DNA of 44,629 nucleotides, from IMG/VR virus record IMGVR_UViG_3300020131_000107, positions 1 through 44,629 of that record. One strand, given 5' to 3'. Origin of the DNA: a virus. Positions within the stretch are counted from its first letter, which is position 1. Every line of letters begins with the position of its first letter. Made by a program: the position numbers and the translations under genes. Positions 4,673 to 11,136 of this stretch are shown one piece after another. A model generated the notes under the pieces. It was not told the origin of the DNA, ran no database searches, and worked only from the letters and a program-made list of their open reading frames with translations.

Positions 4673-4995
4673 CAGAGGGCCTCCACTTTTTCGACGCTGT
4701 GCACGTTGGCTTCGTCGAGGCGGCAGTCGAACGCGTGGAGCTCGCCGCCGGCGCGGACATGAACGCGCACGACGGCGCAGCGCGCGGCCTCGCCGCGGGT
4801 GACGGCGACGGCGTGGCGATAAGCGGCGAGCGACTCGGGGCCGCCGCGGAGGCGCAGCGTGTGCGCTTGCGCTTCCGCATCGATGCCGGGCAACCAGGCG
4901 ACGCCGCTGGTGTAGAGCGCGCGCGCTTCCGGTTTCGGCGCCAGCTTGGCGGCGACCGCCGCGAGCGCGCCGCCGATCGGATAGAGGTCGCTCAT
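4672..4995 (-). CDS. hypothetical protein (107 aa)
   Basis: 107 residues from MSDLYPIGGALAAVAAKLA. The ATG at 4993-4995 overlaps the upstream stop by ATGA, so the long Arg-rich in-frame extension upstream is shadow sequence. The chain is Ala-rich with alternating charged strands (CAVVRVHVRAGGELHAFDCR). No membrane segment is visible. No family is recognised. Confidence 0.55.
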   Translation of the reverse strand: MSDLYPIGGALAAVAAKLAPKPEARALYTSGVAWLPGIDAEAQAHTLRLRGGPESLAAYRHAVAVTRGEAARCAVVRVHVRAGGELHAFDCRLDEANVHSVEKVEAL

Positions 4996-5321
4996 AGCGG
5001 CAGCTCGTCGTCGTCGTCGTAATCGTGATTGCTGGCGCCGGCCGCGTTCGCGTCCGGCTGCGGCAGTTCGCGGTATTGGATCGGCCGGACCGGGCGCGAC
5101 TGTGCGGTGCTGGATTGGTCGCGCGCGATCTGTTCCGAGCAGGGCCGGATCGAATAAATCGCCGACACGCCGTAGAACTCCGTCACTTCGCCATCGGGCG
5201 CGGGGATGTCGATGCGCAGCATCTTGCCGCCGGCGGTCTCGACTTCCTTGACGCGGCCGGGGCGCGTGCGATGGCCCATCAGTTCGACGATGGCCCAACC
5301 TTCGAACGCGACTTCGCTCAT
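4992..5321 (-). CDS. phage conserved hypothetical (beta-rich, acidic tail)
   Basis: 109 residues. FEGWAIVELMGHRTRPGRVK, then EVETAGGKMLRIDIPAP and TEFYGVSAIYSIRPCSE match a small phage family I recognise by its F-E-G-W-A-h-h-E-L-M-G-H opening and F-Y-x-x-x-A-I-Y-x-I-x-P core, which is usually annotated as hypothetical. The C-terminus is an acidic run (DYDDDDELPL). It sits directly downstream of the ParB-like gene with an ATGA overlap, so the two are probably co-translated. Role unknown. Confidence 0.65.
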   Translation of the reverse strand: MSEVAFEGWAIVELMGHRTRPGRVKEVETAGGKMLRIDIPAPDGEVTEFYGVSAIYSIRPCSEQIARDQSSTAQSRPVRPIQYRELPQPDANAAGASNHDYDDDDELPL

Positions 5322-7582
5322 TGCGCGGCTCCCTTCGCAGCGGTCTTCGATTTCGGCTTCGCCGCCTTCTTCGCCGGCGGCTTGGCGAGCTTCTTCGCGG
5401 ACTTCGCCGCGCCCTTCTTCGATGCGGTGGGGGCCGCAGCTTTCGCGGCGGAAGACGCGGTCTTCGCTGCGGCCCCCTTGCCCGCATCCAACCGCCCGGG
5501 CTTACCTTTCGGCTCCCGTGGCGCGGGCAATTTCGGTTTCGGCGCTTCGTCCATGCCGCAGAGCGTGCGCAGGAGCGGCGGGACCCAGGCCGCGGTGGCG
5601 CCGCCGCCTTTGGCGTGATCGGCGACAAGAGCGGCGAGCGCGGCCTTCGTCTTGACGCCGGCGCTGTCGAGGCCGAGCTCGGCGGCGGCCGCTTCGAGCG
5701 AGGCTTTCGAATAGCCTTCGAGATAATCGGCGTCGGGGATGAAATGCGCCGCCGGATTCGCGCCGGCGAGTCGGCCGAGCAGCATCAGCGCGTCGCGTTG
5801 GTCGTCTTTGTAATCGCGCGCGGCGGTCGGCTCGATCACTTTGACGCTTTCGCCGACGCAGAAGGCGAGCAGCGCCAGCACGTCAGCCTGCGGCCAGGTC
5901 GTCATTCGCGCTTCGAGCTTGTCGATCGGCTTGCCGAGCGCGACCAGCCAGCGTTTGCGCGCCGCTGCTTGCGCATCAGCGCCGAGCAACGCGTCTTCGT
6001 CGGCGAACTCGGCGCCGGTCATCCCCTGCCCGGCGCCGCGAATCGTCAGCGCTTCGCAGGCGCTGTCGTTAAGATCAATGTCGAACACTTCCCGCGCCAA
6101 AGCGGCCGTCACCGCGATCAACGCGATGTCCGGCCGTTGCGCCAGCGCGCGGCCGACGATGGCGCTGGCGATGCGCGACGTTTTCTCGTGCGTCAGGTTC
6201 GTCATCGGCGCCTGCGGTTCGGGCTTGGCCGGTTTCGCGCTGGCGGCTTTGCCCTTCTTCGCGGCTCTGCCGGCCGGCGTGGCCGGCCGTGATTTCGGCG
6301 AGATGACGCCGCGCGTGATAGCGAGCGTGCCATCGCTGTTCAACGTGACGGCGACACCGCTCTTTTGCTTGGCCTTGTCATCGAACTCGTAGAATGAGTC
6401 CTCGATCGCTTCCCTGGCGTTGCGCAGATCGATTTCTTCGTCCTCGATCTCCGTCATGCGTTCGGCTTCTTCGTCGGTGTATTCGCCGACCTCTTCGGCG
6501 GTGTCGCGCTTTTCACAGCCGCGCTCGATCGCTTCGTACTCGGCGCGCAGCGCCTTCAGCTTGGCGTCGAGCTCTTTGACGCGGGCTTTTTCTTCGGGCG
6601 TCGGCTTGCGCGGCGTACCGAGATTTCCGTCTGCGTACTTGCCGTAGGGCATCGTGATCGCGGCGTCGACGAAGAGGAAGCCTTCGGCCTCGAGCTTGGC
6701 GGCTTCGGCTGCGAGCTTCTCCTGCGCCAGGCGCTCTGCGAGCGCAGGGTCGAGCCAGCGCGATTGCTCGGGCGCCTTGAAGAACTCCTGTTCGATCTGG
6801 CCGCCGGCGGCGAGGTAAGCTTCCTCGCCGACGAAGCGGGCGACAGCGTCGCCGGCGACGAGCGTGTCTTTCTTCAGTTCATCGCGCACGCGCCACTCGA
6901 CGTCGCGCTGCTTGCCGAGGCCCTTCCACACCTTCTCTTGCCGCGACATATGCGCAGTCGCGTAGAGCTGCGCCACATCGAGCGAGAGTTCGCCGGCGCG
7001 CAATGCTTCAAGGATCGGTTCGTGCAGGCTCGCGAGCTTCATGCGGCTCTTGACGAAGCGTTCGGTGACGCCGAACGCCTTGGCGATCTCGCTGATGTCG
7101 CGGCCTTCGATCACGGCCATGCGGTTCCAGGCGAGCGCGGCGTCGACGACGCCGAGATCGACGCGCTGAGTGTTTTCGGCGATCGACGCCGCGGTCGCGT
7201 TCGCCTGCGTCGTGATGCGCAACGGAATGGCGTCGAAATCGACTTTGAACGCCGGTGCGTCCGGCGCGACGCGCGCCGCGTCCCGGATCAGCTTCAGCGC
7301 ATTGAGGCGGCGGCGACCGCCGACGATGGCGAAGCGGCCCTCGTCATCTTCGTACGCGAGCAGCGATTGCAAGAGACCGCAGGCGATGATGTTGGCGGCG
7401 AGCTCGTCGATGTTTTCGAGCGGAGAGTCCGCGCGCGCGTTCTCCGGCGCGACGTAGAGCTTATCGAGCGGCGCTGCGCCTTCGCGGATCGGCGGCGCTT
7501 CGAACGGCGCGAGGCGCGGCGAAACTTCTATGCCGGCGATCGCGGCAGGTACGCCTTTGGGCTTGCGCGCGGCTTTAGCCAT
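5318..7582 (-). CDS. ParB/Spo0J-family nuclease-like protein with long basic C-terminus
   Basis: 754 residues from the ATG at 7580-7582, which has AAGGAAA upstream. The ParB N-terminal fold is seen with PLDKLYVAPENAR (residues 38-50), VGGRRRLNAL (87-96, the GxRR box) and AENTQR (135-140), followed by a KorB-like HTH at about 161-180 (RDISEIAKAFGVTERFVKSR). Residues about 330-410 are Glu/Lys-rich and helical. The last ~60 residues are Lys/Ala/Pro repeats like histone H1 tails, suggesting nonspecific DNA binding. ParB proteins are CTP-switch DNA clamps that work with ParA. No ParA was found nearby, so a role as an orphan regulator or DNA-coating protein is also possible. Confidence 0.85.
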   Translation of the reverse strand: MAKAARKPKGVPAAIAGIEVSPRLAPFEAPPIREGAAPLDKLYVAPENARADSPLENIDELAANIIACGLLQSLLAYEDDEGRFAIVGGRRRLNALKLIRDAARVAPDAPAFKVDFDAIPLRITTQANATAASIAENTQRVDLGVVDAALAWNRMAVIEGRDISEIAKAFGVTERFVKSRMKLASLHEPILEALRAGELSLDVAQLYATAHMSRQEKVWKGLGKQRDVEWRVRDELKKDTLVAGDAVARFVGEEAYLAAGGQIEQEFFKAPEQSRWLDPALAERLAQEKLAAEAAKLEAEGFLFVDAAITMPYGKYADGNLGTPRKPTPEEKARVKELDAKLKALRAEYEAIERGCEKRDTAEEVGEYTDEEAERMTEIEDEEIDLRNAREAIEDSFYEFDDKAKQKSGVAVTLNSDGTLAITRGVISPKSRPATPAGRAAKKGKAASAKPAKPEPQAPMTNLTHEKTSRIASAIVGRALAQRPDIALIAVTAALAREVFDIDLNDSACEALTIRGAGQGMTGAEFADEDALLGADAQAAARKRWLVALGKPIDKLEARMTTWPQADVLALLAFCVGESVKVIEPTAARDYKDDQRDALMLLGRLAGANPAAHFIPDADYLEGYSKASLEAAAAELGLDSAGVKTKAALAALVADHAKGGGATAAWVPPLLRTLCGMDEAPKPKLPAPREPKGKPGRLDAGKGAAAKTASSAAKAAAPTASKKGAAKSAKKLAKPPAKKAAKPKSKTAAKGAAQ

Positions 7583-7922
7583 TGCTGTTTCCTTTTTGCT
7601 GGAGTTCGCGCGCACGGCGCAGGATGCGCAGCGTGTTGAGCTGCGAGCGCGCGAGCTGGCCGGCGGCCTTCATGGTCTCGTGCGCGACGTCGTCATTGCT
7701 GCTGGGGCTGATGGCGCAGTCGATCTCGACCGCGAGCGCGCGCGTCAGCGCGTCGATACGGGCGTAGAGGCCGACGCCAGCGGCCATCGCCTCGGCGGTC
7801 AACGTGTGAATCAGGTGCGCCAGCGCGTCGGTTTGCGCGAACGGGTCGTTGAGGCCGGCCACGCCGGCGCGGGCTGCGCGGCGGGCGGATTCGACGGCGA
7901 GCGAGGTGACAGATTCGGGCAA
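7575..7922 (-). CDS. first gene of leftward operon, hypothetical (115 aa, TTG start)
   Basis: 115 residues, all-helical and Ala-rich, with no recognised family. The start is TTG (7920-7922) preceded on the minus strand by GGAGGGG at a 6-7 nt spacing, a strong ribosome site that compensates for the weak codon; no ATG is available upstream. It is the first gene downstream of the leftward promoter at 7954-7982, the position occupied by N in lambda. Nothing in the sequence identifies it as an antiterminator. The stop overlaps the ParB-like start by 8 nt. Confidence 0.6.
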   Translation of the reverse strand: MPESVTSLAVESARRAARAGVAGLNDPFAQTDALAHLIHTLTAEAMAAGVGLYARIDALTRALAVEIDCAISPSSNDDVAHETMKAAGQLARSQLNTLRILRRARELQQKGNSNG

Positions 7923-7953
7923 AAGCGCCCCTCCGCGTTACAGGCGGAGCGGA

Positions 7954-7982
7954 CGCTAACCGGGACAGTTCCCGGTCGTCAA
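7954..7982 (-). promoter_or_regulatory. predicted leftward early promoter PL
   Basis: On the minus strand TTGACG (7982-7977), a 17-nt spacer and TTAGCG (7959-7954) form a sigma70-like promoter facing the TTG-start gene at 7922. The spacer holds the perfect-arm palindrome O_L1, so repressor binding would block polymerase directly. Confidence 0.6.
7959..7976. promoter_or_regulatory. predicted operator O_L1
   Basis: ACCGGGACAGTTCCCGGT has 7-bp perfectly inverted arms around a 4-bp centre. The same pattern recurs at 9636-9653, on the other side of the repressor region. It lies between the -35 and -10 of PL. Confidence 0.7.
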
Positions 7983-7990
7983 CGGCGCAT

Positions 7991-8006
7991 TAGGGATTTG
8001 TCCCGA
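7991..8006. promoter_or_regulatory. predicted operator O_L2 (weaker)
   Basis: TAGGGATTTGTCCCGA keeps the GGGA-N4-TCCC core of O_L1. Its centre lies 31 bp (about three helical turns) upstream of the O_L1 centre, suitable for cooperative binding. Confidence 0.5.
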
Positions 8007-8012
8007 TAGACT

Positions 8013-8021
8013 TGTGGATTT
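8013..8021 (-). promoter_or_regulatory. weak DnaA-box-like site near O_L
   Basis: TGTGGATTT matches the complement of the DnaA box TTATCCACA at 7 of 9 positions. It is listed because a better match lies next to the right operators (9600-9608) and the phage encodes a DnaA domain-IV protein. On its own it could be chance. Confidence 0.2.
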
Positions 8022-8524
8022 CAGTTCGCTTGATCGGCCCACGCGGCGGCATCCCGCGCTGCGCGCCGGTCGAAGGGGAGGCCGAGAGTCTGCATTTCGC
8101 GCTCAACCGCCGCGACCTGACCGGTTGGAGTCAGCGCATCGCCGATGCCGGCGTACGAATTCACATAGCGGCTGTCCTGCTCGCGCGTGGATCGCGCGAA
8201 CCGGCCGTCCGCGGCGAACACGAACTCGGCTCGGGTGATGTCGAGGTCGCTGCCATTGGTGACGAGGCCGACGAACGGCACGAACGTCGATGCGTTGGTG
8301 CGATTGACGACATGATAGTACGTCCATGCGCTCTCGCCGCCGTCAGCGGCGTAGCGCACTTCGTGCGGCTGACCAAAGATCGCATGCAACTCCTGCTTCG
8401 TCGTCACACCGGGCTGCAGCTGTTGCCACCGGCCGAAATCGTGGACTGCCTGGCTCCCGTGCGTCGTGGTGCAGGCGGTCATAGCGACGGCCGCGATGAC
8501 GGCGGCGATGGTGCGCGTGAGCAT
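8021..8524 (-). CDS. BamE/SmpA(OmlA)-like lipoprotein in the immunity region
   Basis: 167 residues from the ATG at 8522-8524, preceded by GGAGAAG. The N-terminus (MLTRTIAAVIAAVAMTAC) is a lipoprotein signal with lipobox AMTAC, so the mature protein begins at a lipidated Cys. The segment LQPGVTTKQELHAIFGQPHE with WTYYHV downstream is the SmpA/OmlA pattern of BamE-like proteins. It is the third gene of a leftward unit: repressor, membrane protein, lipoprotein. Located between the repressor and PL/O_L, it occupies the place of lambda rexB/rexA and is probably expressed in the lysogen. A role at the host outer membrane, such as superinfection exclusion, is an inference. Confidence 0.8.
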   Translation of the reverse strand: MLTRTIAAVIAAVAMTACTTTHGSQAVHDFGRWQQLQPGVTTKQELHAIFGQPHEVRYAADGGESAWTYYHVVNRTNASTFVPFVGLVTNGSDLDITRAEFVFAADGRFARSTREQDSRYVNSYAGIGDALTPTGQVAAVEREMQTLGLPFDRRAARDAAAWADQAN

Positions 8525-8543
8525 CTGAAGCTTCTCCCCTCGA

Positions 8544-8819
8544 TTAAGCTGTGATGTCGGCGGCGCGAGACGGGCCGCTGGCCGCAACGCGCGCAGGCTC
8601 GGCGTGCGGCCGCGCGAAGATTGCGCCGGCGACGAGCAAGGCGGCGGCGATGATCGTCAGGTTCGTTTTCTCATTCAGCACGCCGATATTGTTGACGCCC
8701 GGACCGTCTAGGTAGCTGTAGCTCTCGAACGCCGATACGCCGGTGCTGGCGTCGATCGAGAGCGCGAAAATGCCGAGCGCCGCGCCGGCGCAGAACAGAA
8801 CCCAACCGAAACCCTGCAT
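8544..8819 (-). CDS. small membrane protein of the repressor operon (91 aa)
   Basis: 91 residues with two hydrophobic segments, about 2-22 (GFGWVLFCAGAALGIFALSI) and 54-69 (TIIAAALLVAGAIFA), joined by a polar loop of about 30 residues that would face the periplasm, and an Arg/Ala tail. AAGGAGGGG lies 5 nt before the ATG, an unusually strong ribosome site. The gene follows the repressor by 19 nt and precedes the BamE-like lipoprotein by 19 nt. Its position suggests lysogenic expression. No family is recognised. Confidence 0.7.
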   Translation of the reverse strand: MQGFGWVLFCAGAALGIFALSIDASTGVSAFESYSYLDGPGVNNIGVLNEKTNLTIIAAALLVAGAIFARPHAEPARVAASGPSRAADITA

Positions 8820-8838
8820 GTCAGCCCCTCCTTTTCGA

Positions 8839-9576
8839 TCAGCGCCGAGCCGGCAGATAGCCGCCGAGCACGAGCGCGGCGATTTCGATCAGATCTTCTT
8901 CGGCCGAGTCGCTGAAATCGAGTGGCGCTTTCCATTTCGGATTGCGCGAGCGCGGCCAGAGCTCCACCTTGCGCCCCTTCTTGAAAATCTGCTTCAGCGA
9001 GCGCTCGATCAGCCCACCCTGCTCGCGCTTTCGTTCGACGACGACGAAATCATCGTGCCGCGGGGCGTAGCCAATGGCGACGGCGTCGACGACGTGCACG
9101 AACACGCCCTCGGGATAATAGAGGTCGGCTGAATCGCCGCGCACAAGCTCGAGCCATTGTGCGTCCGGCGGGAAGCCGGGGTCGGCGGTGACCGGCGGCG
9201 ACACGAGCCGTTCCTGGGCGAGGTCGTCGACCTCGATCCAGGCGCCGGCCTGCACCACGTAGCGCACCGGCAGAAGCGGACCGCTGCGGACTGGCGCGCG
9301 CTGTGGCGTGTGCTCGTCGACGCGAAGCCGACCGGCGCCGTCGCTGCCTGGCAGCTCGAGCGCGGCGCTGACGTCTTCCATCGAACGGCCAAGCGTGTTC
9401 GCCAGAGCCGCGAGCGAGTCCGTACGCAGCACTCGGGACTTACCGCGCGCAAGGTCGCGCAGCATGTCGGGACTGCCCGCCGCTACCGCAGCCGCGTGCG
9501 GGCTGGAGAATCCGGCCGCCGCGAGCATGTCGAGAAAAGCTTTCGGGTACTGAGACTTAGAACGGGCACGGGGCAT
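8839..9576 (-). CDS. CI-like repressor, HTH plus S24 peptidase domain
   Basis: 245 residues from the ATG at 9574-9576. Residues about 12-65 form an HTH-type domain (AFLDMLAAAGFSSPHAAAVA onward). The C-terminal half is S24 peptidase-like: an Ala-Gly pair at 110-111 (VVQAGAW) in the place of the self-cleavage site, LVRGDSAD with candidate nucleophile Ser149, and ERSLKQI with candidate Lys195, then LWPRSRNP. All three elements are intact, so RecA-stimulated self-cleavage and SOS induction are expected. The ribosome site GGGAG abuts the ATG, so initiation may be weak, leaderless, or from the ATG at 9610-9612 (12 residues longer). Flanking palindromes are the likely binding sites. Confidence 0.88.
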   Translation of the reverse strand: MPRARSKSQYPKAFLDMLAAAGFSSPHAAAVAAGSPDMLRDLARGKSRVLRTDSLAALANTLGRSMEDVSAALELPGSDGAGRLRVDEHTPQRAPVRSGPLLPVRYVVQAGAWIEVDDLAQERLVSPPVTADPGFPPDAQWLELVRGDSADLYYPEGVFVHVVDAVAIGYAPRHDDFVVVERKREQGGLIERSLKQIFKKGRKVELWPRSRNPKWKAPLDFSDSAEEDLIEIAALVLGGYLPARR

Positions 9577-9599
9577 CTCCCGCAATCTGCCATGGGAAC

Positions 9600-9608
9600 T
9601 TATCCACG
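9600..9608 (+). promoter_or_regulatory. DnaA-box-like site beside O_R
   Basis: TTATCCACG matches the consensus DnaA box TTATCCACA at 8 of 9 positions. It lies between the repressor start and O_R2 and overlaps GATAAG on the minus strand, a candidate -10 for repressor transcription. Bound DnaA, or the phage's own DnaA domain-IV protein, could therefore affect repressor synthesis. This link is inference. Confidence 0.35.
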
Positions 9609-9613
9609 GCATT

Positions 9614-9627
9614 TGGGGTTCGTCCCG
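9614..9627. promoter_or_regulatory. predicted operator O_R2 (weaker)
   Basis: TGGGGTTCGTCCCG keeps the GGGN-N4-TCCC core seen in the other three sites. Its centre lies 24 bp from the O_R1 centre, upstream of the PR -35 element and on the repressor side. Confidence 0.45.
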
Positions 9628-9628
9628 C

Positions 9629-9658
9629 TTGACTGACCGGGCCATTTCCCGGTTCATG
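9629..9658 (+). promoter_or_regulatory. predicted rightward early promoter PR
   Basis: TTGACT (9629-9634) followed after 18 nt by TTCATG (9653-9658) mirrors the layout of PL: TTGAC, an ACCGGG...TCCCGG palindrome, then a TT-starting -10. The -10 is weak. The implied start point near 9665 is at or next to the ATG of the first rightward gene. Confidence 0.5.
9636..9653. promoter_or_regulatory. predicted operator O_R1
   Basis: ACCGGGCCATTTCCCGGT differs from O_L1 in three of the six central positions and keeps both outer arms. It occupies the -35/-10 spacer of PR, so a bound repressor would exclude polymerase. Confidence 0.7.
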
Positions 9659-9666
9659 GCTGCAGT

Positions 9667-9966
9667 ATGCATTCCGAAGCGCCCCCTTCTTCGCCCGCGC
9701 TGGCCGCCTTTTTGGCCCGGTTCGACGCCTATTGCGAAGCCGCCGGGCGTCAGCAAGGTCCCGTTTCGCTTCAACTTTTCGGCGCATCCGACCGGGTGAG
9801 CGAGATCCGCAACACCCGCTCGGATGTCGGTGTAAAGCGGCTCGCCCAGGCGGAAGCGGAATTGTCCCGCCTCGCCGCCGAAGCCGGGATCACACTGCCC
9901 GACGCCGTCGAGGGAACCGAGTCCGAAACGGAACCGGCGCGGCCTCTCCAGGCAGGCGCCGCATGA
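9667..9966 (+). CDS. Cro-like small regulator, first rightward gene
   Basis: 99 residues. Residues about 10-66 (ALAAFLARFDAYCEAAGRQQ, then PVSLQLFGASDRVSEIRN and VKRLAQAEAELSRL) resemble compact Cro/Arc-like phage regulators that begin with FLxRxDAYCxxxG and have a recognition helix near SDRVSEIR. Position supports this: it is the first gene of the rightward operon, divergent from the repressor across O_R. No Shine-Dalgarno sequence precedes the ATG, and the predicted PR start point is within a few bases, so translation may be leaderless. The C-terminal 30 residues are polar and probably disordered. The stop overlaps the next start by ATGA. Confidence 0.65.
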   Translation: MHSEAPPSSPALAAFLARFDAYCEAAGRQQGPVSLQLFGASDRVSEIRNTRSDVGVKRLAQAEAELSRLAAEAGITLPDAVEGTESETEPARPLQAGAA

Positions 9967-10472
9967 GCGACAAACCTCGCCTGCTCTCCCCTGCCGCGTA
10001 CGGTTCGCTGAAGGGCGCGACGGCGGCGGCGTTCGCCGTGGCGACGCCGCAGGGCACGGCTGAAGCGTTCGCGCAGCTGACGCGCAACGAACCGCGCTCG
10101 CTCAGAAAGTACGCCGACCACGCGCACGAATTGTTCGTGCCGATCGATATCGCCGCCGATCTCGACCGCGCGGCGGGGAAACCGATCATGGCGCGCGCTT
10201 TGGCGCAGCTTGCGGGTTGCGCCGTTTACGGCGTCAGCGGCGGCACGGAAGCGCGGGCGCTCAGCGCGATCAAAGAGACTGGCGAAGCTGTGGCTGCCCT
10301 GGCGCAGCTGGCGCCGGGGGCCTGGGGGCTCGAGCAGGCGAGGGCGGCGCGCGCGGACATTCGCGAAGCGATCGCCGCCCTCGCCGGTTTCGACGCCGCG
10401 CTCACACAGAGAATCGAAGGCGGCGTTAGCGCTTTTGCGCGGACCGCCGCAGACGAAGAAGGGAGCAGCTGA
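9963..10472 (+). CDS. phage regulatory protein, possibly CII (CP76)-like
   Basis: 169 residues. The N-terminal half (YGSLKGATAAAFAVATPQGT, then RSLRKYADHAHELFVPIDIA and DLDRAAGKPIMARALAQLAG) has the order seen in phage CII/CP76-like regulators: a short HTH-like stretch, the FVPIDIxxDLD segment, then a helix ending ALAxLxG. The C-terminal half is an Ala-rich helical region. Gene position, second after PR, is that of lambda cII. The assignment is by pattern and position and could be wrong. ATGA overlaps the upstream gene; TGATG overlaps the downstream one. Confidence 0.55.
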   Translation: MSDKPRLLSPAAYGSLKGATAAAFAVATPQGTAEAFAQLTRNEPRSLRKYADHAHELFVPIDIAADLDRAAGKPIMARALAQLAGCAVYGVSGGTEARALSAIKETGEAVAALAQLAPGAWGLEQARAARADIREAIAALAGFDAALTQRIEGGVSAFARTAADEEGSS

Positions 10473-10663
10473 TGGTGAAGCCGTTGAAGGATCGCATTCA
10501 CGCGACGTTGCAGAAGCACGGGCCGGCGTCGACCGACACGATCGCGCAGCGCATCAGCGTGAAGGCGAAGCTGATCAGCCCGCGTCTATCCGAGCTCAGG
10601 GCGGCGAAGAAGGTCAGCATGACGAAAGGCGACGGCGGCGAAGAGGTCTGGCGCGCCAAGTAA
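10472..10663 (+). CDS. small winged-helix-like protein (63 aa)
   Basis: 63 residues. LKDRIHATLQKHGPASTDTI followed by KAKLISPRLSELRAAKKV and a terminal strand pair (SMTKGDG then EEVWRAK) fits a minimal winged-helix domain of the kind that reads HGPASTxxIA...SPRLSELRxxxxV. The product is likely a DNA-binding regulator. GGGAGCAGCTG precedes the ATG, which overlaps the upstream TGA. Confidence 0.6.
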   Translation: MVKPLKDRIHATLQKHGPASTDTIAQRISVKAKLISPRLSELRAAKKVSMTKGDGGEEVWRAK

Positions 10664-10737: not shown

Positions 10738-11136
10738 ATGGCAAAGCAATCGAGGGCGGCGTCCGCATCGTCGGGCGCGCCCAAGAATTCTGCGTGCGGC
10801 GGTCCGCGCAACAGCGCTGACGCCGGCGCGTCTTCATTCGCGGCGACGGCGCACTTTCGCGAGGCGCACGATCTGCTGAGCGCGCCGATCGCAACGCGCG
10901 TGAAGGCGATCGTCGAACGCTGCGCGGCGCGGCATGGGTTCACGGCCGACCAGCTGAAGGCCAAAGGCCGATCGCGGCCGCTGGTGAAGGCGCGCAACGA
11001 AGCGATTCAGCTGGTCGCCAAGTGTTTTCCCGATTTCTCCTATCCGCATCTCGGCAAGATCTTCCGCCGCGACCACACGACCATCATGCACGCGCTCGGC
11101 GTGCTCGGCCGGCAACAAAAGGCGCGCGCGCAATGA
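10738..11136 (+). CDS. DnaA domain-IV (Bac_DnaA_C) protein
   Basis: 132 residues. The first ~42 are Ala/Ser-rich and disordered. The rest is a stand-alone DnaA DNA-binding domain: VERCAARHGFTADQLKAKGR, then RPLVKARNEAIQLVAKCF, YPHLGKIF and the signature RDHTTIMHA (residues 111-119), which binds DnaA boxes in full-length DnaA. There is no AAA+ domain, so the product cannot unwind DNA itself. It could target replication proteins to a phage site or occupy host DnaA boxes. The gene starts 74 nt after the previous one and overlaps the next by ATGA. Confidence 0.88.
   Translation: MAKQSRAASASSGAPKNSACGGPRNSADAGASSFAATAHFREAHDLLSAPIATRVKAIVERCAARHGFTADQLKAKGRSRPLVKARNEAIQLVAKCFPDFSYPHLGKIFRRDHTTIMHALGVLGRQQKARAQ

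Follow-up and report, generated by a model that had tools for sequence, protein, structure and literature searches.

The repressor block of this virus, together with the intergenic regions on its two sides, would with a probability that we put at about 0.9 constitute a lambda-plan immunity region of a temperate phage, in which a CI/LexA-type repressor acts on CGGG-N6-CCCG operators. The window analyzed, i.e., the whole stretch of 44,629 nucleotides (44.6 kb; IMG/VR record IMGVR_UViG_3300020131_000107), comes from a phage whose host is probably an alphaproteobacterium. The plan itself is lambda's and of a known kind; what is new is the sequence of the operator and the fact that it recurs across the family, and no description of this operator class was found in the open-access papers searched. 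Judged by the recurrence of the layout in related phages, the binding sequence predicted here is in all likelihood correct, and binding, cooperativity, promoter activity, autoregulation, and inducibility are features that we infer.

The putative repressor (245 aa; 8839-9576, minus strand) has an N-terminal helix-turn-helix (HTH) domain (residues ~10-77) and a C-terminal S24/LexA-type autocleavage domain (~99-245). A110-G111, S149, and K195 are invariant in an alignment with 12 relatives, which places the Ala-Gly cleavage site and the Ser-Lys dyad as in self-cleaving repressors. The S24 family matches 12 of the 12 repressors in the family alignment, and the window repressor alone falls under the Pfam S24 cut-off (17.9 vs. 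23.3 bits). In an AlphaFold model with a mean pLDDT of 82.5, residues 96-245 align with LexA (Z 13.2) and the lambda repressor (Z 12.7 and 10.8; range 9-13), and residues 9-77 align with 434 Cro, the 434 repressor N-domain, SinR, and P22 c2 at Z values (6-6.6) that are weak by themselves and consistent once joined to position and sequence. Sequence and model together argue for a CI/LexA-type protein, combining a 434-like HTH domain with an S24 autocleavage domain.

Two 18-bp palindromes of the form ACCGGG-N6-CCCGGT flank the repressor at a distance of 1677 bp from each other, OL1 (ACCGGGACAGTTCCCGGT, 7959-7976) and OR1 (ACCGGGCCATTTCCCGGT, 9636-9653). A preliminary description of this DNA had reported both as near-identical palindromes, and they are found exactly at these positions. 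It had also assigned a weaker partner to each, and these partners were confirmed as sites with GGG-N6-CCC cores: OL2 (TAGGGATTTGTCCCGA, 7991-8006; core GGGATTTGTCCC, 7993-8004) at 31 bp from OL1, and OR2 (9613-9628; core GGGGTTCGTCCC, 9615-9626) at 24 bp from OR1. All four of its sites are real, but a fifth was overlooked, OR3 (9568-9583; CGGGGCATCTCCCG, 9569-9582; GGG-N6-CCC core GGGGCATCTCCC, 9570-9581), which spans the repressor start codon; OR is therefore a three-operator cluster. OR2, OR3, and OL2 differ from the strong-site sequence. A further weak site, GGGAACTTATCC (9594-9605, offset 45), with five of six arm bases and matrix rank 41, was dropped as an operator, having no counterpart at offset 45 in the related phage L018 and overlapping a DnaA-box-like sequence.

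The strong pattern occurs twice in the 44.6 kb, where 300 dinucleotide shuffles gave 0.003 on average, and in none of 5000 local shuffles did it appear in both intergenic regions. Of the 13 copies of GGG-N6-CCC in the window, four fall within the two intergenic stretches, which offer 166 start positions and for which the window-wide rate predicts 0.034 (Poisson P 5e-8); four were reached in 3 of 5000 local dinucleotide shuffles. As the pattern was taken from the same data, these P values are post hoc, and it is the comparative tests that are independent. Chance, i.e., GC-rich palindromes mimicking an immunity region, might seem favored by the pattern being no commoner than random at three mismatches: the search at that threshold, proposed in the preliminary description, returns six matches vs. 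4.6 by chance and so has no power, but with two or fewer mismatches only OL1 and OR1 are left. Given two exact copies where 0.003 are expected, a layout that is repeated in independent phages, and a fixed 69-bp spacing, such mimicry is negligibly probable. With a matrix built from other phages' operators only, OL2 has the top score in the whole window (15.28; next 11.16), and OL1 and OR1 rank no better than 16 and 29, a moderate result due to the C and G that this phage has outside the arms and to the variable bases inside; their assignment therefore rests on layout and arms, not on score.

A -35 element stands immediately outside each strong site and points outward: TTGACG for PL (7977-7982, minus strand), with OL1 occupying the spacer after it, and TTGACT for PR (9629-9634, plus strand), with OR1 in the corresponding position. 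The claim that each strong site lies in the spacer of an outward TTGAC promoter is thus borne out for the -35 element, which is conserved in relatives, and stays putative for the -10, as a scan found no acceptable sigma-70 -10 hexamer; PRM was not recognizable either. The word promoter therefore rests here on the conserved -35.

The lambda immunity region runs OL-PL, cI-rexA-rexB, OR-PR-cro-cII. The window resembles it in gene order, with repressor, accessory genes, and OL/PL to one side and, to the other, OR/PR followed by the Cro position, the CII-like gene, and replication genes, as well as in its three right operators, its strong operators inside the predicted PR and PL spacers, and its S24 self-cleaving repressor. 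It differs in operator sequence, in the position of OR3 over the repressor start codon, in the two left operators found, in the lack of an identified N homologue, in a PR operon that includes a DnaA domain IV protein, and in having, where lambda has rexAB, genes for a BamE-like lipoprotein and for a small protein of the membrane. The membrane protein (91 aa; 8544-8819, minus strand; phrog_8032, E 5e-5) lies downstream of the repressor in the rexA/rexB position, and the lipoprotein (8021-8524, minus strand; lipobox VAMTAC; phrog_3135, E 1.5e-10) is the last gene of the block, with a 64% identical homologue directly 3′ of the L018 repressor. Both (8021-8819, minus strand) are positioned for co-expression with the repressor, as are rexAB in lambda, and by this analogy both could act in lysogenic conversion or in the exclusion of superinfecting phages.

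At the head of the PL operon is a gene for a 115-aa protein with a TTG start (7575-7922, minus strand); L018 has a 51% identical homologue at the corresponding position. The protein matches no Pfam or PHROG family, though N proteins are so variable that it may be an N-type antiterminator. In the PL leader, a hairpin CUCCGC...GCGGAG (7915-7950, minus strand) would hide the GGAGGGG ribosome-binding site of this gene; it is retained in L018 with a different loop, and the fold is slightly better than in shuffled sequences (z -1.5 and -1.1). The PL operon also encodes a large ParB-like protein (765 aa; 5318-7615, minus strand; 52% identical homologue in L018), although neither a ParA (AAA_31) nor a tyrosine or serine integrase (PF00589, PF00239) was detected in the record, which may be a fragment. 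The prophage state is thus only presumed for this contig, which is perhaps a plasmid-like prophage or incomplete. On the plus strand, the PR operon begins with a 99-aa Cro-position protein (9667-9966), which has a predicted four-helix HTH-like fold and no sequence match to known Cro families. It is followed by a CII-like regulator (9963-10472) that matches phrog_101, “CII-like transcriptional activator” (E 1.6e-12), and no Pfam CII family, and that has a 65% identical homologue in L018, then by a small winged-HTH-like protein (10472-10663) and a stand-alone DnaA domain IV, i.e., DNA-binding domain, protein (10738-11136; PF08299, E 1e-12).

It is the related phages that decide the interpretation as a lambda plan, because the same layout recurs in them. 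The nearest annotated relative of the repressor, 37% identical by alignment, is that of Acetobacter phage phiAX1 (L013, LC644973), where it is annotated “hypothetical protein”; the phiAX1 paper makes no mention of operators (PMC8566455). The divergent region of phiAX1 contains TGCGGGGATATGCCCGCA, GCGGGGATATAACCGG, and ACGGGATAATTCCCGC, and the far side of the block contains GCGGGGATATCCCC and TGCGGTATAATCCCCGCA, with the main sites following TTGAC at both PR (TTGACC-A-ATGCGGGCATATCCCCGCAT) and PL (TTGACA-TGCGGTATAATCCCCGCA). phiAX1 thus shares with the window CGGG-N6-CCCG sites on both sides, TTGAC with an operator in the spacer, an OL spacing of 31 bp, and an OR1-OR3 distance of 69 bp, but has OR2 at 34 bp (24 in the window) and an outer half-site TGCGGG instead of ACCGGG. 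Sites of this type also flank the repressor block on both sides in Roseomonas rosea L024/L039 (OR at 4929, 4952, and 4987; OL at 5796 and 5824; PL TTGACA, PR TTGCCA), IMG/VR L025 (OR at 4945 and 4967; OL at 5699 and 5728; TTGACT and TTGACA), and Gluconobacter L048 (OR at 4882 and 4951; OL at 7278, plus one site in a TTGACG spacer), and are found on the right side only in Bombella prophages (TTGACA). In these relatives the main site lies in the spacer of an outward -35, which has TTGAC throughout except at the Roseomonas PR, and the window's PL arrangement, a -35 followed by OL1, is also seen in L013, L018, L024, L025, and L048. By our reading of the relatives, the dyad centre would always fall in the middle of the -35/-10 spacer. 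The OL-PL/OR-PR plan of the preliminary description is accordingly upheld in phages with repressors of this family, which have the same kind of sites, on both sides, in outward -35 spacers.

Spacing is conserved as well. Counted between 12-bp cores from OR1 towards the repressor, the offsets are 0, 24, and 69 in the window and L018; 0, 34, and 69 in phiAX1 and L048; 0, 23, and 58 in Roseomonas; 0, 22, and 41 in L025; and 0 and 75-76 in Bombella. OR1 and OR3 are thus exactly 69 bp apart in four phages (the window, L018, phiAX1, and L048), and in the phages compared the operator nearest to the repressor gene always reaches its start codon or ends just short of it. The left operators are 31 bp apart in the window, phiAX1, and L048, 28-29 bp in L024 and L025, and 22 bp in L018. 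In Rhizobium phage 16-3, also an alphaproteobacterial phage, the available parts of the sources describe a C repressor with operators on both sides, oL1, oL2, oR1, and oR2 (PMC12429752), and PL and PR under the control of C (PMC3694467); unlike in the window, no third right operator is named for 16-3 in those parts.

How far the motif extends was delimited by several searches. TTGAC-N1-2-ACCGGG-N6-CCCGGT has eight matches in viral_contigs, none of them near a repressor relative; the exact operator was therefore found in no other phage there. Used singly as queries in protein scans, the repressor, the Cro-position protein, and the ParB-like protein returned nothing, and a six-sequence alignment was too divergent for use as a scan query. 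In 385 genomes of the same class, 12 more distantly related S24 repressor loci lack a comparable GGG-N6-CCC set, which means that the operator does not extend to the superfamily as a whole. Another palindrome directly after an outward TTGACA is nevertheless present in at least two of the 12 (L056 and L060), and the layout with an operator in the spacer thus appears wider than the GGG-N6-CCC motif. Other palindromes directly after outward TTGAC were seen at ~4900-4950 in L020, ~1420 in L056, and ~1358 in L060.

Inverted repeats of this kind could instead be sites for a host factor, such as a LexA box or a site for another regulator, or GC-rich stem-loops acting as terminators or attenuators; GC-rich inverted repeats are frequent in such genomes, and the window has its 13 copies of GGG-N6-CCC. 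However, no T-run follows the repeats and a terminator scan did not return them, the alphaproteobacterial LexA box, GAAC-N7-GAAC, is another motif, and the repeat sequence varies between phages together with the repressor HTH. The 5.3-Mb Roseomonas rosea genome provided a whole-genome test of confinement in the host of a relative: ACGGGGATNTCCCCGT with 0-1 mismatches was found at three places only, all adjoining the prophage repressor and none outside the prophage immunity region. We consider a host-factor or stem-loop function very improbable.

The CGGG-N6-CCCG sites are better explained as operators of the repressor, whose DNA-binding domain they appear to follow through a natural domain swap. 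The repressors of phiAX1 and L048 are 95% identical in the N-domain and 36% in the C-domain, and their operators are alike; those of phiAX1 and L034 are 97% identical in the C-domain and 28% in the N-domain, and their operators differ, L034 having TGCGC-type palindromes without GGG-N6-CCC. L031 and L034 represent a clean natural domain exchange relative to L013, with 95-97% identical C-domains and unrelated HTH domains (24-28%). A finer change is seen in the closest relative, L018 (IMGVR_UViG_3300020202_000194), which is syntenic with the window (repressor 67%, ParB-like protein 52%, CII-like protein 65%, and Cro-position protein 51% identical) and shares its promoter flanks and OR geometry (0/24/69), but differs in an OL spacing of 22 rather than 31 and in the absence of the membrane-protein gene. 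Its OL1 aligns with that of the window between identical flanks, GTTGACGACCGG...CCG.TTAGCGTCC, and its OR1 aligns without gaps, yet its operators are ACCGG-N8-CCGGT, with ACCGGG changed to ACCGGT or ACCGGC and the promoter flanks nearly unchanged. The recognition helix changes along with the inner operator bases, from SPDMLRD in the window to SPDLLRN in L018, with Asn in place of Asp41. Position 41 of the window repressor presumably corresponds by alignment to the base-contacting Gln33 of the 434 repressor. The domain swap and the Roseomonas genome search both support the assignment of the operators to the repressor that the preliminary description had made.

The swap cannot fully separate repressor from Cro, as N-domain, operators, and Cro-position gene tend to travel together, and the palindromes might serve primarily the Cro-position protein, the repressor having its sites elsewhere or none. 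That protein is predicted to be HTH-like and travels with the operators, and in lambda Cro and the repressor use the same sites. Nevertheless, its fold matches are weak, with no Foldseek E < 0.3; L018 and L020 have recognizable Cro-position homologues, yet different operators; and several phages have such sites also beyond the repressor block and across the first codon of the repressor gene, where a repressor switch would need them. A primary role for the Cro-position protein is decidedly unlikely on this evidence, and a lambda-like sharing of sites would be compatible with a repressor switch.

The lambda-plan reading suggests the following mechanism. A dimeric CI/LexA-type repressor would bind palindromes CGGG-N6-CCCG, with ACCGGG-N6-CCCGGT as the best form here. 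Since OL1 and OR1 would lie between the -35 and -10 of PL and PR, bound repressor would silence both early operons: PL with the 115-aa and ParB-like proteins, and PR with the Cro-position, CII-like, and replication genes. OL2 and OR2 may act as secondary sites, probably through cooperative binding, and OR3, lying over the repressor's own start codon, may provide negative autoregulation that limits repressor synthesis. DNA damage would lead to RecA-stimulated (SOS) self-cleavage at Ala110-Gly111, freeing both promoters for lytic growth. The start of PR would be only a few bases away from the Cro-position ATG (9667), suggesting a leaderless message or one with a very short leader, and the CII-like protein presumably assists the establishment of lysogeny.

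A link to replication initiation may also be considered. A DnaA-box-like sequence, TTATCCACG (9600-9608, plus strand), lies between OR2 and OR3 and is the only match with one or no mismatch in the window; the only other WWATCCAC in the window (8014-8021, minus strand) adjoins OL2. A DnaA domain IV homologue is likewise encoded by L018, whose OL region contains TAATCCACA (6234-6242). DnaA-type sites could be wired into the switch, with the phage DnaA domain IV protein or host DnaA coupling lysogeny to replication initiation, but this is a speculative and unlikely proposal, unsupported in two further phages with DnaA domains.

As a system, an immunity region of this kind is unsurprising. Its recognition gives a concrete and testable operator code for a family of repressors of alphaproteobacterial phages, whose annotation does not go beyond “hypothetical” or “S24 protein”. 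The natural series described here, with conserved flanks, changed operator bases and recognition helix, and domain swaps, bears on which residues set immunity specificity, and it would be useful for predicting homo- or heteroimmunity from sequence.
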